Assembly: GCA_030446285.1 (NCBI GenBank)
Contig: JASUSC010000013.1
Span: forward strand, 1-35,237
Origin: Eubacteriales bacterium
GTDB taxonomy: Bacteria > Bacillota > JASUSC01
Direction of reading: 5' to 3'
DNA length: 35,237 nt
Part shown: piece by piece, positions 11,283 to 18,767 of the stretch
How positions within the stretch are numbered: the first letter of the stretch is position 1
Layout of the letters: every line of letters starts with the position of its first letter
Notes under the pieces: generated by a model
What the model was told of the DNA's origin: nothing
What the model saw: the letters and a program-made list of their open reading frames with translations, nothing else
Database searches by the model: none
Translations under genes and position numbers: made by a program

Positions 11283-12119
11283 TTATGCGTAAGAATGGAG
11301 TCCAGGCACGAAGTAGTTGATACCAAAGAAGGTAAACAGAACGGCAATGAAACCAAGAATAGCAAAGAAAATAGCTCTTCTTCCCCGCCAGTCCAGCATT
11401 AGCCGGTTATGGGGGTAGGCAGCGTAAATAATCCAGGTAATGAGGGTTCAGGTCTCTTTCGGGTCCCAGCTCCAGTAACGGCCCCAGGCAAACTCAACCC
11501 AAATGGCGCCGGAGATAATGACTATCGAAAGGAAGATAAAGCCAAAGACGATAAAACGATAGGCCAGTTCCTCAAAGGTCGTCCTCGACGGTAAGACCCG
11601 GACAAGAGCACACCCCGGCTGCCGGACCTTTCTCCGGCTTCTTTGATAAGGTACATGATGGCCAGGCCGAAAGAGACGGCAAAAGCACCGTAAGAAATAA
11701 TGGAAGTAGCCACGTGAATATAGAGCCGGTTGCTGCACAACACCGGCATCAAGTCAGTAGGCGATCTCTCCTCTCACAAAAACATCAGCACAGAAGCTAG
11801 CAGCAACCAGGCTCTCGGCATAACGAGGGCACCTAACATCCGCAGGTTGTACTTCCACTCAGCAAACATATAGATAAGCACAATCCAATAGATAAGCACA
11901 ATACCCCAGGTAAAAGAAACTAGAAAATCATAGCCGTTGGACAAAGACGGTTGCCCTGCCTTTTTCCAGCGCACAAGCAACAGAACCGTATTCGCCAGCA
12001 GACCTACTGCTGCTGCCAAAGTTCCTCCCTTGTCCAAACTTTCACTGTGGAAAGCCGCATAGATTAAAATAAAGAAGGGTAGCGATGAAATAGGCAGCAA
12101 AGGTCACATAGCTGTACAC
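11283..12119 (-). pseudogene. ccsA: ccsA/resC relic (cytochrome c maturation, System II)
   Basis: CcsA is a multi-pass membrane protein that presents heme to apocytochrome c. The pieces are clear: VYSYVTFAAYFIATL, then [48 protein letters not shown], and the hallmark tryptophan-rich [12 protein letters not shown], then LITWIIYAAYPHNRLMLDW and a normal end at 11283. They cannot be read as one frame. There is a frameshift near 12065-12075, an in-frame TGA at 11774-11776, a frameshift near 11590-11640, and a TGA at 11448-11450 where relatives have Trp in WDPKETW. Four lesions make this a pseudogene unless the local sequence is faulty. Confidence 0.85.
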
Positions 12120-12815
12120 CGCCCGAAACTTGTTCAGCTTTATTTCCACATTGTCACGTGGATCCGCAATCCGCACCTTGGGAACCACGGTCGGGCTAAC
12201 TTTATCTCCTTCGGAAATTTCCCCATAAGTGTTGGAAAACCTCCAGTCCCCTGAAAAGTAAAGATCATAGCCACTATTATCACAATAAAGGCCAAATGGA
12301 TGACAAAAGGCCCCCCTCCCAATCCGTCCTTTGTCCGCTGCTAAAAAGCGTTTACCCTCTTCCTCCCGTTTCAAAACGCGGCAACCTTTGCCCTTCAGGA
12401 CTTCCTCAACCTGGTTCGCCACTTCTGCCGGACTGCCGCTCTTTCTGCTCTCGAAGCCGTATCTCAAACCCCGAAAGACGCTCTCGCTGAAATCCAAACG
12501 CGGCCCGCGTAATGCAGCTCTAATTGCCGGCCAGCGGTTAAAGATGATTTAGACAGAGAAGGCCCAGAAGAGCGAGGAAAAGGGGGTTGTTATAAAAACA
12601 CTCGTAATTTTCCTTCATCACCAGGGTACCGATTATGGAGGCCAGAGTAATAATTATCAGGAGGATAACCCTCATCTTCATTGAGCTAAAAAGTTCCAGA
12701 ACACCTGAACCAGATCTTTTGCATTTCCGTCCTGAGCAGGCATTACCTCTTCCACTTCAGCCACTTGTTTTGTCGCTTCCTTTTCGTCCAGTTTAGTTTT
12801 CTTTTTCTTCGCCAT
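12110..12815 (-). pseudogene. resB: resB/ccs1 relic (cytochrome c maturation, System II)
   Basis: ResB partners CcsA in moving heme across the membrane. The remnant starts at ATG 12815 (MAKKKKTKLDEKEATK, ending VFWNFLA), shifts frame near 12680 into SMKMRVILLIIITLASIIGTL, and seems to lack most of the loop normally found before LFLALLGLLCLN. It shifts again near 12540 into FNRWPAIRAALRGPRLDF. A compensated pair of frameshifts lies near 12310 and 12255 (the transmembrane text GPFVIHLAFIVIIV is in another frame). After IKLNKFRAVYS it runs straight into the start of ccsA, so the C-terminal half of ResB is missing. Confidence 0.8.
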
Positions 12816-13298: not shown

Positions 13299-13316
13299 GC
13301 CGGTTTTGCCACCGGC
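13299..13316 (-). terminator. Terminator of the trxB operon
   Basis: GCCGGT (13299-13304) pairs with ACCGGC (13311-13316). Read on the minus strand the hairpin is followed by TTTTT. It ends transcription just after the thioredoxin-fold ORF. Confidence 0.75.
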
Positions 13317-13334: not shown

Positions 13335-13679
13335 TTACTGTCCGTTTTCGCCTTCCGGCCGTATTCCCCTCTTGGTTAACTCAGCCACTAAGTAGGGGTA
13401 GGATAGGGCTCCGGCCATTACCGGTTCCGAATCAAAAGCAATAATAGGCAAGGGAGTTTTGTAATCGTCCAGGTATTTCTTCACTTCCGGATAGTCGTCC
13501 AAACGGGGATCGTCATTGACATCAATGTATTCCAGATCTACCCTCCCCCCGTATTTCTCCTGCAAAATTTCTCTGATAACGCCGGCAATCTCCTCCTGAG
13601 ATTGAGATGGCCCTCAGCCGCCGCGGCTGCAGCTATCAAAAATTCGGGAACCAAAAACCCTGATGGTTACTTCTGCCAT
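13335..13679 (-). CDS. Thioredoxin-fold protein, candidate selenoprotein (in-frame TGA at codon 22)
   Basis: ATG 13679 has a strong site (AAGGAG, eight bases away). The frame reads MAEVTIRVFGSRIFDSCSRGG, then TGA (13616-13614), then GPSQSQEEIAGVIREIL and on without a break to 13335: 114 codons if TGA is read through. The layout is a first beta strand, Cys17, residue 22 before Gly-Pro-Ser, a helix, YGGRVDLEYIDV, and a proline next to a strand (TPLPIIAF) where thioredoxin folds have cis-Pro. It resembles the small YuzD/DUF1462-like disulfide proteins, without certainty. With selenocysteine the active site would be C-x4-U. It is last in an operon led by trxB, a natural reductant. The alternative is a nonsense mutation, since nearby genes are damaged. 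Confidence 0.55.
13586..13604 (-). promoter_or_regulatory. SECIS-like hairpin just after the in-frame TGA
   Basis: On the minus strand CAATCTC (13604-13598), loop AGGAG (13597-13593), GAGATTG (13592-13586): seven perfect pairs. The stem begins nine bases after the TGA and the loop begins 16 bases after it. The loop has G among its first two bases. These values fit the general bacterial SECIS pattern (apical loop a short distance after UGA, G near the loop start). Pairing below the stem is poor. Confidence 0.45.
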
Positions 13680-13701: not shown

Positions 13702-13889
13702 TCAGTTTCTCTGACGTCGCAACTCTTCATCTACCCATGCCAGTTCCTCTTCTAGCTCTTCCAACTGGACAAACATGGCCGGTTGCAGGGAATGGGCCGG
13801 AAAGCGCTTCTCCAGGTTCTCTTTTTTCTCCGCCAGCTTTTCTCGGTACAGCGGAGCTGGTCTTCCGTCATTGTCTTAAATTCAACCAT
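13702..13889 (-). pseudogene. Small coiled-coil protein gene with a frameshift
   Basis: ATG 13889 opens MVEFKTMTEDQLR. A one-base shift near 13851-13855 is then needed to continue as LYREKLAEKKENLEKRF, QPAMFVQLEELEEEL and WVDEELRRQRN to the stop at 13702. The whole product would be about 62 residues, nearly all charged helix, and likely a coiled coil. No family is recognised. It lies between the zinc-ribbon gene and the thioredoxin-fold ORF and is presumably co-transcribed with trxB. The shift is either a real mutation or a sequence error. Confidence 0.5.
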
Positions 13890-13943: not shown

Positions 13944-14150
13944 TCAGCCGAAGGCTCTGGCCGAACAGGAAGGCGTCCCTGCCGAGGGACAGGAAGACGA
14001 ACTGCTACCCTTCATGACGGCAAAACCGGTAAAAAGCTGCTTCACCTTCCCACCGCATTTGGGACAGGTGACGCTGTCCTTTTCGGCAATAGCCACCATT
14101 TTGCTAAATATATGACCGCAGCTTTCACAGCGGAAATCGTAATTCGGCAT
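13944..14150 (-). CDS. FmdB-type zinc-ribbon protein
   Basis: A 68-residue protein starting MPNYDFRCESCGHIFS, the hallmark of the FmdB/CxxC_CxxC_SSSS family. Cys8 and Cys11 pair with CPKCG about 20 residues later to bind one zinc. The serine-rich tail (GSSSSSCPSAG) is also typical. Relatives are called regulatory proteins, but their role is not established. The start is ATG 14150, because GGAGG lies eight bases upstream; the longer upstream frame is spurious. It lies about 100 bases after trxB in the same direction. Confidence 0.85.
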   Translation of the reverse strand: MPNYDFRCESCGHIFSKMVAIAEKDSVTCPKCGGKVKQLFTGFAVMKGSSSSSCPSAGTPSCSARAFG

Positions 14151-14255: not shown

Positions 14256-15179
14256 TTATCTCATTTTTTTCTCCTCCAGGTACTTCTCCACCGCTACCGC
14301 CGCCATCGCCCCATCGGCAGCCGCCGTTATTACCTGCCGCAGTTTTTTCTGGCGCACGTCGCCGGCGGCGAAAATACCGGGAATCGAAGTCATCAAGTTA
14401 TCGTCGGTAATTAGGTAACCTCCTTCATCTACGCGCGCCAGCTCTCGAATAAACTCAGTATTGGGCTTCATGCCTATATAGATGAAAATCCCGTCTACCG
14501 CAATGCTTCGTTTCTCGCCGGTTTTCGCATCCTGGAGCAAAAGGGCCTCCACTTTGTCCGTTCCCAGGATTTCCGCCACCGTGGTGTTCCAAATAAATTC
14601 GATCTTGGGATTGGCAAAAGCCCTCTCCTGCAGCACCTTTGTAGCCCGCAGGGCGTCGCGGCGATGAATCAGATACACCTTGTCCACCAGCTTGGTGAGG
14701 AAGAGAGCCTCTTCGACGGCAGCATCTCCTCCTCCTACCACCGCCACCTTCTTGTCCCGGAAAAAGGCTCCGTCGCAGGTGGCGCAGTAGGAAACGCCGC
14801 GGCCCCTAAGCTCCCTTTCTCCCTTTACTCCTAACTCTTTCGGCTCGGCGCCGGTGGCAATGATCAGGGCCCGGCCAACCATTTCCCGGTCGGTGCAGCT
14901 GAGAATAAAACGTCCATCTTCCTCCCGCACCCGCTCCACGTTGGTGGTGACAAACTCCACCCCGAACCGGCGGGCTTGATCAGCCATGCGCATCATCAGT
15001 TCCGGTCCCATAATCCCTTCCGGAAAACCGGGATAATTCTCAATCATTTCCGTAGTGGCCGCCTGACCACCGGGCATACCCCGTTCCACTAAAGCGGTTT
15101 TCAAATTGGCGCGACCGGCATACAGTCCAGCAGTAAGCCCGGCCGGCCCACCCCCAATTATTATCACATCGTAGCTCAT
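14256..15179 (-). CDS. trxB: Thioredoxin reductase
   Basis: FAD- and NAD(P)H-dependent reductase of thioredoxin-like proteins. The order is the usual one: FAD motif IIIGGGPAGLTAGLYAGRA, redox-active CATC in SYCATCDGAFFRDKK, NAD(P) motif VAVVGGGDAAVEEA, and C-terminal FAD motif IPGIFAAGDVRQK. It is 307 residues and complete. ATG 15179 has GGAG eight bases upstream. It heads a minus-strand operon with the zinc ribbon, the broken coiled-coil gene and the thioredoxin-fold ORF. Its promoter contains an ATACCC-N5-GGGTAT palindrome, so it is probably repressor-controlled. Confidence 0.95.
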   Translation of the reverse strand: MSYDVIIIGGGPAGLTAGLYAGRANLKTALVERGMPGGQAATTEMIENYPGFPEGIMGPELMMRMADQARRFGVEFVTTNVERVREEDGRFILSCTDREMVGRALIIATGAEPKELGVKGERELRGRGVSYCATCDGAFFRDKKVAVVGGGDAAVEEALFLTKLVDKVYLIHRRDALRATKVLQERAFANPKIEFIWNTTVAEILGTDKVEALLLQDAKTGEKRSIAVDGIFIYIGMKPNTEFIRELARVDEGGYLITDDNLMTSIPGIFAAGDVRQKKLRQVITAAADGAMAAVAVEKYLEEKKMR

Positions 15180-15215: not shown

Positions 15216-15244
15216 ATTATACCCTATTGGGGTATATCTGGCAA
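15216..15244 (-). promoter_or_regulatory. trxB promoter with embedded CsoR/CstR-like operator
   Basis: Minus strand: -35 TTGCCA (15244-15239), 17-base spacer, -10 TATAAT (15221-15216). The palindrome TATACCC-N5-GGGTATA (15218-15236) fills the spacer and overlaps the -10 box. The core ATACCC-N5-GGGTAT occurs again upstream of the FAD/Fe-S gene. C/G-tract palindromes flanked by ATA/TAT are typical of CsoR/CstR/FrmR-type repressors, which sense copper, persulfides or aldehydes; none is encoded in the window. Confidence 0.65.
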
Positions 15245-17598: not shown

Positions 17599-18685
17599 TC
17601 ATCTGCTCACTACCGCTCTTTTCGCCGTAACGTATTTTTCCGCATTGATTCCCGCTATAGCCCCATCGGCAGCAGCGGTGATGGCCTGCCGCACCGACTT
17701 GGCCCGCACATCCCCGGCGGCAAACACGCCTTCAATGTCAGTAGCCATCTCCGCATCGGTGATGATGTACCCGTTTTCATTCATGGCCACCTGTCCCCGG
17801 AAAAGTTCCGTCGCAGGACGGGTGCCGATGTAAACGAAGACTCCGTCGGTGGGTATCTCTCTCCGCTCGCCGGTGCGGAGATTTTCTATCTCTACCGCAG
17901 TAACGTGCCCTTCTCCAATTACCCGCCGTACTTCTGACTCCCAGATTACGTCAATTTTGGGATGGCGCAAAGCCTCTTCCTGGGCAACCCGGGACGCCTG
18001 GAAATGGTCAAACTGGTGCACTATGGTGACGTGTTCGGCAAAACGGGTGAGAAACACCGCTTCCTCCACAGCGGAGTTGCCCCCGCCTACCACTATCACC
18101 CGCCGGCCCTGGTACATAGCCCCATCAACAGGTAGCACAGTAGTGGACGCCACGCCCCCGAAAGGTGTCCTCCCCTTCCGCGGGAAGCAGACGCGGTTTC
18201 GCCCCGGTGGCAATGATGAGAGCCAGAGCATAGTAGTCCGTATCTTCCGTGACCACCTTCTTTACCTCTCCCACCAGGTCCACTTCCGCCACTTCCTTAT
18301 AATCGTCCACCCGCACGCCGAAACTTTGGGCCTGGCGGAGCATATTATCCATCAGTTCCCGTCCCCTGATCACCCCCGGCGTCCCCGGGTAATTGGCGAT
18401 ATGGTAGGTAGTTGCCGCCTGTCCCCCAGGCAATCCCTCTTCCACCACTACGGCGTTTAGTTTGGCCCGGCCGGCATAGATAGCCGCGCTGAGCCCGGCC
18501 GGACCGGCCCCCAAAATTATCAGGTCTGCCTCCACCTGTTTCCTTTCCCCGGGTTTTACCTCCGTCCCGAAGGTCTCCTCAATGGCCCGGCGGAGTTCCG
18601 CCTTGGAGATGTAGCCGGCAAGACGCCGCTCCTGCCACAATAATGAAAATACCCTAGCTGTCGCCGGTGACAAAATCATTTTCAT
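17599..18685 (-). pseudogene. Second thioredoxin-reductase-like gene, frameshifted at its CxxC
   Basis: A trxB paralogue with an N-terminal extension of about 50 residues (SPATARVFSLLWQERRLAGY, then SKAELRRAIEETFG) before the FAD motif LIILGAGPAGLSAAIYAGRA. The frame reads to RGRGVHYCATC and stops at TGA 18127-18125. One base fewer would continue as DGAMYQGRRVIVVGGG (NAD(P) motif) and on to IEGVFAAGDVRAKSVRQ and the end at 17599. So a single extra T follows the second active-site Cys codon. Both halves are otherwise well conserved. It could be a fresh mutation, a sequence error, or a +1 shift site at a stop codon; the first two are likelier. ATG 18685 lacks a good ribosome binding site. Confidence 0.75.
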
Positions 18686-18767
18686 TCTCAATGGAACAAG
18701 TATTTTTGAACTAACTCACCATCCCTTCGCCTTTCTTTCTTTTCCATCCATAATCTTCATTTTACCT

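Follow-up and report, generated by a model that had tools for sequence, protein, structure and literature searches.

A small thioredoxin-fold gene with an in-frame UGA very probably encodes a selenoprotein of a widespread family

The window analyzed here is the whole 35,237-nucleotide stretch of contig JASUSC010000013.1 from an Eubacteriales bacterium (assembly GCA_030446285.1). It contains a small minus-strand gene that consists of 21 codons, a UGA at codon 22, and 92 further codons in the same frame, running from M1 through C17-SRGG-TGA22-GPSQSQEE to Q114 (Table 1). The product, read from 13679 to 13338, is MAEVTIRVFGSRIFDSCSRGG-U-GPSQSQEEIAGVIREILQEKYGGRVDLEYIDVNDDPRLDDYPEVKKYLDDYKTPLPIIAFDSEPVMAGALSYPYLVAELTKRGIRPEGENGQ, in which U denotes the codon 22 UGA. 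A strong ribosome-binding site, AAAGGAG, lies directly 5' of the ATG. The initial annotation had described the coordinates of this gene, its strong start, and its interrupted frame with the C-x4-[TGA]-G-P-S motif; re-reading of the frame bore out each of these points, and the minus strand is added here. UGA is an ordinary stop codon in the host, terminating 13 of the 30 genes of the window, and standard gene calling would shorten the gene to a 21-residue stub or miss it.

Table 1. Features of the candidate selenoprotein gene and its operon in the window.
Feature	Position	Strand	Remarks
Terminator-like hairpin with T-run, just 3' of the candidate selenoprotein gene	13299..13316	-	Consensus match only
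Candidate selenoprotein gene, 114 aa, ~13 kDa, predicted thioredoxin-like fold, motif C17-x4-U22-G-P-S	13338..13679	-	Stop codon 13335-13337
SECIS-like hairpin CAATCTC-AGGAG-GAGATTG	13586..13604	-	Loop starts at UGA+16 nt; G in loop position 2
In-frame UGA, codon 22, very probably read as selenocysteine	13614..13616	-	Column TGA 25, TGC 15, TGT 11 (51 homologues)
Cys17 codon, likely selenylsulfide partner of Sec22	13629..13631	-	Cys in nearly all homologues
Small helical protein gene (RFPAHSLQP...EELEEEL), conserved neighbor	13702..13889	-	Frameshifted in assembly
FmdB-type zinc-ribbon protein gene (Zn_ribbon_8)	13944..14150	-	PF09723, 57.8 bits
trxB-like gene for NADPH-dependent flavoprotein, CATC active site	14256..15179	-	5' of the FmdB-type gene
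Promoter-like site 5' of trxB, TTGCCA-17-TATAAT, 11/12	15216..15244	-	Consensus match only

The operon with trxB and a zinc-ribbon protein gene proposed in the initial annotation is real, and the zinc ribbon is of the FmdB type. The accompanying caution about lesions in nearby genes was also right, as both the adjoining helical protein gene and a second thioredoxin-reductase-like gene are frameshifted. The latter (window 17599-18691, minus strand) has an N-terminal extension, with the frameshift right after CATC. Window 11448-12600 on the minus strand holds ResB/CcsB-like cytochrome c biogenesis genes with several frameshifts and stops, beside an intact heme synthesis cluster. The frameshifts of the window, including those in the cytochrome c biogenesis genes, may be assembly errors. 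The small helical protein, also encoded at L050:6179-6370, has the motif [RM]xPAHSxxPxM and no Pfam match, and its gene adjoins the Sec gene in several genomes.

The bacterial SECIS element is a hairpin shortly 3' of the UGA, with a small apical loop and a G near the loop start. The hairpin reported for this gene, which starts nine bases 3' of the UGA (13604-13586) and has a perfect 7-bp stem and the loop AGGAG, was found as described. Considered alone it is weak (stability z = -0.61): 25% of 400 random TGAs of the window have an equally stable hairpin, and a stem as long follows 6% of all 845 window TGAs. The stability of the single hairpin was dropped as stand-alone evidence, and the case therefore rests on comparison with homologues.

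Comparison with other genomes revealed that the interrupted frame recurs. A relative in the same genome (C64:2202-2519) is 42% identical, with its single UGA at the corresponding position (NCRSGG-U-GLS). Among 150 relatives searched, 32 genomes gave matches, the best of which nearly all have exactly one TGA, and family members turned up in 74 of the 399 genomes from the same phylum that were searched with a profile. The codon-22 column of an alignment of 51 representatives contains TGA, TGC, or TGT and no other codon; U was scored as C, which favors lining up this column, but the core group leaves no doubt about the placement, since C-x4 and G-P flank the column there. The residue aligned with codon 22, which the initial annotation had singled out for checking, is thus Sec or Cys in all 51 sequences. 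The 25 aligned UGA genes are the window gene, its same-genome relative, and 23 genes from other genomes of the phylum, and they derive from 22 genomes of the sample, all Sec-decoding. Asp53 and a cis-Pro-like Pro78 are invariant in this alignment, and Cys17 is nearly so. Locus L123 encodes a direct Cys counterpart that has the complete motif, CFSGGCGP: FGAREKSLCFSGGCGP. With the motif columns left out of tree building, Sec22 requires 5 changes and all states together ~9, indicating that Sec and Cys were swapped repeatedly. A contig scan, limited by the small number of sufficiently conserved stretches, gave only two named matches, Carboxydocella thermautotrophica and a Thermoanaerobacteraceae MAG, and a plasmid search found no family relatives.

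Eight more distant members have Cys in the codon-22 column and a UGA elsewhere in the same loop (e.g., GGUSCS), with downstream hairpins in most. The two clade-wise Sec positions, together with the ~9 Sec/Cys changes, identify this loop as a selenol/thiol active site. Loci with a shifted UGA include L137, L145, L149, L151, and L157 (loop GGUSCS or GCMGU), L132 and L155 (SGUGCS), L063 (CGUGCS), and L133, L134, L141, and L146. These homologues probably represent further unlisted selenoprotein subfamilies, some adjoining arsA, arsD, or ACR3-type genes.

Analysis of the hairpin across the family indicated that it follows the UGA. Of 24 core UGA genes, 22 have the loop 16 nt from the UGA, with the loop sequences AGGAR or GGA/GGC. 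Across the 51 aligned rows, 22 of 25 UGA genes and none of 26 Cys genes have a stem of 5 bp or longer at UGA+16 (p = 1.5e-11). Both sides change in the covarying pairs 14-30, 15-29, and 16-28 (A-U, G-C, C-G, and U-A). Stem cells are paired in 87.5% of cases versus 30-45% in slid controls, and the 21 double-change stem cells were equaled in none of 500 shuffles. Some Cys genes without the stem encode nearly the same peptide through different Ser and Glu codons (e.g., SQEE in L135). In the sister UGA genes L048 and L053, the stem at UGA+16 is lost and a new one, with the loop GGUCU or GGUUU, lies at UGA+30, suggesting that the SECIS apparently moved within the gene. In L130, the third exception to UGA+16, the stem lies one codon further on.

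The initial annotation held that a genome without sel genes would speak against Sec. The host encodes selA (642.8 bits), selB (397.5 bits), and a Sec-type selD (391 bits), the last with an in-frame UGA of its own in the motif KAG-U-AAKI, but tRNA-Sec was not found in the host assembly, which is 82% complete. An RF01852 match in the host (50.1 bits, above the cut-off) was rejected as tRNA-Sec, since ARAGORN assigned it to tRNA-Ser(UGA). The host selB contig stops ~1 kb past selB; in genome G037, tRNA-Sec directly adjoins selB. Eleven of 12 tested relatives with UGA members have tRNA-Sec at 69 bits or more. Within the phylum sample, selB occurs in 263 of 399 genomes and in 36 of 36 with the UGA form; Cys forms alone are found in the 8 family-bearing genomes that lack selB. 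The UGA form is associated with selB (Fisher p = 0.005; p = 8e-5 for the 22 codon-22 genomes alone), with p-values that are optimistic as the genomes are non-independent. The host selD (G000:C63:38426-39349), itself a selenoprotein gene, adjoins selA, and a Mo/W-cofactor riboswitch (L076:1087-1223) lies ~3 kb from it.

Judged from these sequences, codon 22 almost certainly specifies Sec, and the apparent stop inside this small gene is very probably a selenocysteine codon. SelB with Sec-tRNA would bind the hairpin 16 nt past the UGA, and codon 22 would then be decoded as Sec. Recoding to another residue such as Trp or Gly, or selenium-free readthrough by natural suppression, fits a frame that is open downstream of the UGA, but UGA serves as the stop of 13 of 30 window genes, the homologues have only Cys at the site and never Trp or Gly, and the hairpin accompanies UGA and is missing where the codon is for Cys; we consider such readthrough highly improbable. 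A plain nonsense mutation or assembly error in a dying gene, which the frameshifted neighbors and the tRNA-Sec missing from the incomplete assembly might suggest, deserves practically no credence and is refuted by the conservation of the UGA, which stands in the same column of 24 other genes of many families together with a covarying SECIS and sel genes. Because the paralogue and genomes of numerous other families share this UGA, the miscalled base that had been raised as a concern is also ruled out. The UGA genes thus described very probably belong to a widespread family of small proteins that contain selenium.

AlphaFold predicts a thioredoxin-like fold for the window protein (pLDDT 87.4, pTM 0.80), with the lowest certainty in the active-site loop (pLDDT 65-73). 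This model and the Sec/Cys column agree with the earlier proposal of a thioredoxin-like fold with the UGA at a redox-active-site position where U or C is expected. Searching PDB, Pfam, and NCBIfam with single sequences assigned no family with confidence; profiles alone did so. Among the structural matches listed, the top TM-score is that of 1xg8 (SA0798, DUF1462/YuzD; 0.67 to 0.70), followed by ArsD (0.52-0.57) and thioredoxins (~0.5); by E-value thioredoxin comes first, with none passing 0.001. The family profile matches 1xg8 with E = 4e-10, and DUF1462 has been assigned to the thioredoxin fold (PMC3091736). The window protein and DUF1462/YuzD (PF07315) share this fold, a similar length, and an active-site loop before helix 1, and profile and TM-score together place the protein with the YuzD-type fold; it differs in having C-x4-U in place of CxxC, in containing Sec, and in scoring 15.5 bits, below the gathering cut-off of 25. 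The Cys-to-Sec spacing is C-x2-U in other branches, and the CxxU relative L065 passes PF07315 (28.6 versus 25 bits), aligning gap-free to the CASC of SA0798 around Sec, with Sec at the second Cys.

Comparison with ArsD (PF06953, NF033727; 3mwh, 3ktb) revealed the same fold class and the related motifs C-x4-C-G-P-[ST] and C-x4-U-G-P-S. In an hhalign comparison (93% probability) of the family profile with the ArsD of a relative's ars operon, U22 stands opposite the last Cys of CCPTGLCGPT. The window protein nevertheless lacks the first of the three As(III)-binding Cys residues, keeping the last two positions with the last as Sec, scores far below the ArsD family cut-offs, and lies outside an ars operon. 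With thioredoxin (PF00085), including the known Sec thioredoxin (UxxC), it shares the fold, the likeness of U-G-P to the C-G-P of WCGPC, and a TrxB in the operon, but it has Ser at the second active-site Cys and its partner Cys upstream; the thioredoxin profile gave no significant match. Since U-G-P-S lacks the second thioredoxin cysteine, the classic CxxC mechanism does not apply. Modeling and profile comparison thus suggest a small thioredoxin-fold family between YuzD/DUF1462 and ArsD, with no apparent signal peptide, in which Sec22 would occupy the active-site loop before helix 1, at the place of the CxxC site of YuzD and the last metal-binding Cys of ArsD.

We lean toward a SECIS-decoded selenoprotein with a thioredoxin fold and a selenylsulfide redox cycle fed by TrxB. 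Most likely, Cys17 and Sec22 would form a redox-active selenylsulfide; Sec22 would attack an oxidized substrate (a disulfide, a peroxide, or an oxidized sulfur or selenium compound), Cys17 would resolve the Sec-substrate intermediate, and the operon TrxB, or a thioredoxin, would reduce the pair with NADPH. The observed basis consists of the Sec/Cys conservation, the covarying SECIS, the sel genes, the modeled fold, and the operon linkage, from which we infer the redox cycle, the TrxB partnership, and the substrate class. A redox protein reduced by TrxB is the best functional guess because the operon of trxB, FmdB, helical, and Sec genes is conserved: in G131, G011, and G096 the four genes lie together, with FmdB 3' of the Sec gene. 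The order is trxB-FmdB-Sec in G057, rhodanese-helical-Sec in G211, and helical-methyltransferase-Sec in G125, and in G106 a thioredoxin gene precedes the Sec gene and an OsmC gene follows it. Some neighbor names in these and the following loci were assigned by eye from sequence, whereas PF09723, Pfam SBF, YedE-like/TusA, and the G106 thioredoxin were tested. The redox reading is favored by the links to TrxB and thioredoxin, by the pairing of Cys with Sec in the loop, and by the thioredoxin fold; against it, the TrxB link is not universal, as other members lie by queD-queC, YedE/TusA, or arsenic-efflux genes.

The main rival is an ArsD-type chaperone that would use Sec to handle metalloids or selenium, in which Cys17 and Sec22 would form a soft two-ligand site for As(III), Sb(III), or reduced selenium, passed to a partner with no electron cycling. 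It is the main rival because of the ArsD-like motif (CC-PTGL-CGPT against C-SRGG-UGPS, the hhalign match above) and the arsenic neighborhoods of distant members: ArsD-ArsA-ArsA at L132, an ACR3-type transporter (Pfam SBF) at L063, and adjoining ACR3- and ArsC-like genes, named by eye, at L067. ArsD also gives weak matches in Pfam and NCBIfam and is among the top structural matches, and at the Carboxydocella locus a methyltransferase gene, a DUF302 gene, the Sec gene, a YedE-like gene, and a TusA gene lie together. Because a flavoprotein reductase and no arsenic genes adjoin the gene in the window and its closest relatives, and the first ArsD cysteine (C12) is absent with profile scores far under the cut-offs, we regard this chaperone as possible but rather unlikely, and prefer the TrxB-reduced redox protein. 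More doubtful is the broader conjecture that a YuzD/ArsD-like superfamily repeatedly swapped Cys for Sec at two places of the active-site loop and that part of it consists of selenium-based metalloid chaperones; if true, it would mean Sec-based handling of arsenic, antimony, or selenium, which we found described nowhere.

To our knowledge, Sec occupies almost only catalytic thiol positions, which ties the uncharacterized, conserved YuzD/DUF1462 proteins to redox or metalloid chemistry. Like the known prokaryotic selenoproteins, of which a 2026 review lists 119 families and subfamilies (PMC13188914), the family combines a UGA and a SECIS directly downstream with Cys homologues and sel genes. 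Compared by name, none of the 119 entries is YuzD, DUF1462, ArsD, or a C-x4-U motif, nor do the nine new families of deep-Sep (PMC12013277) match by name. The literature on YuzD/DUF1462 yielded no reported selenoprotein, and NCBIfam 20 (June 2026) gave no match above cut-off for the members scanned, with sub-threshold ArsD, NrdH-like, and thioredoxin hits only. The family thus appears new to the catalogues checked, a judgment by name and profile libraries and not against every deposited selenoprotein, and would add a selenoprotein family with a C-x4-U-G-P motif to the 119-entry catalogue. Carboxydocella thermautotrophica, a named and sequenced strain, encodes a member on CP028514.1, making the Sec claim directly testable there.

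A second Sec branch, with the motif NCxRTGUGPxQSQAE, is always found beside queD and queC (6 loci: L055, L056, L058, L121, L122, and L131), with the Sec gene directly downstream. This link to 7-deazaguanine synthesis is conserved, with no obvious reason.
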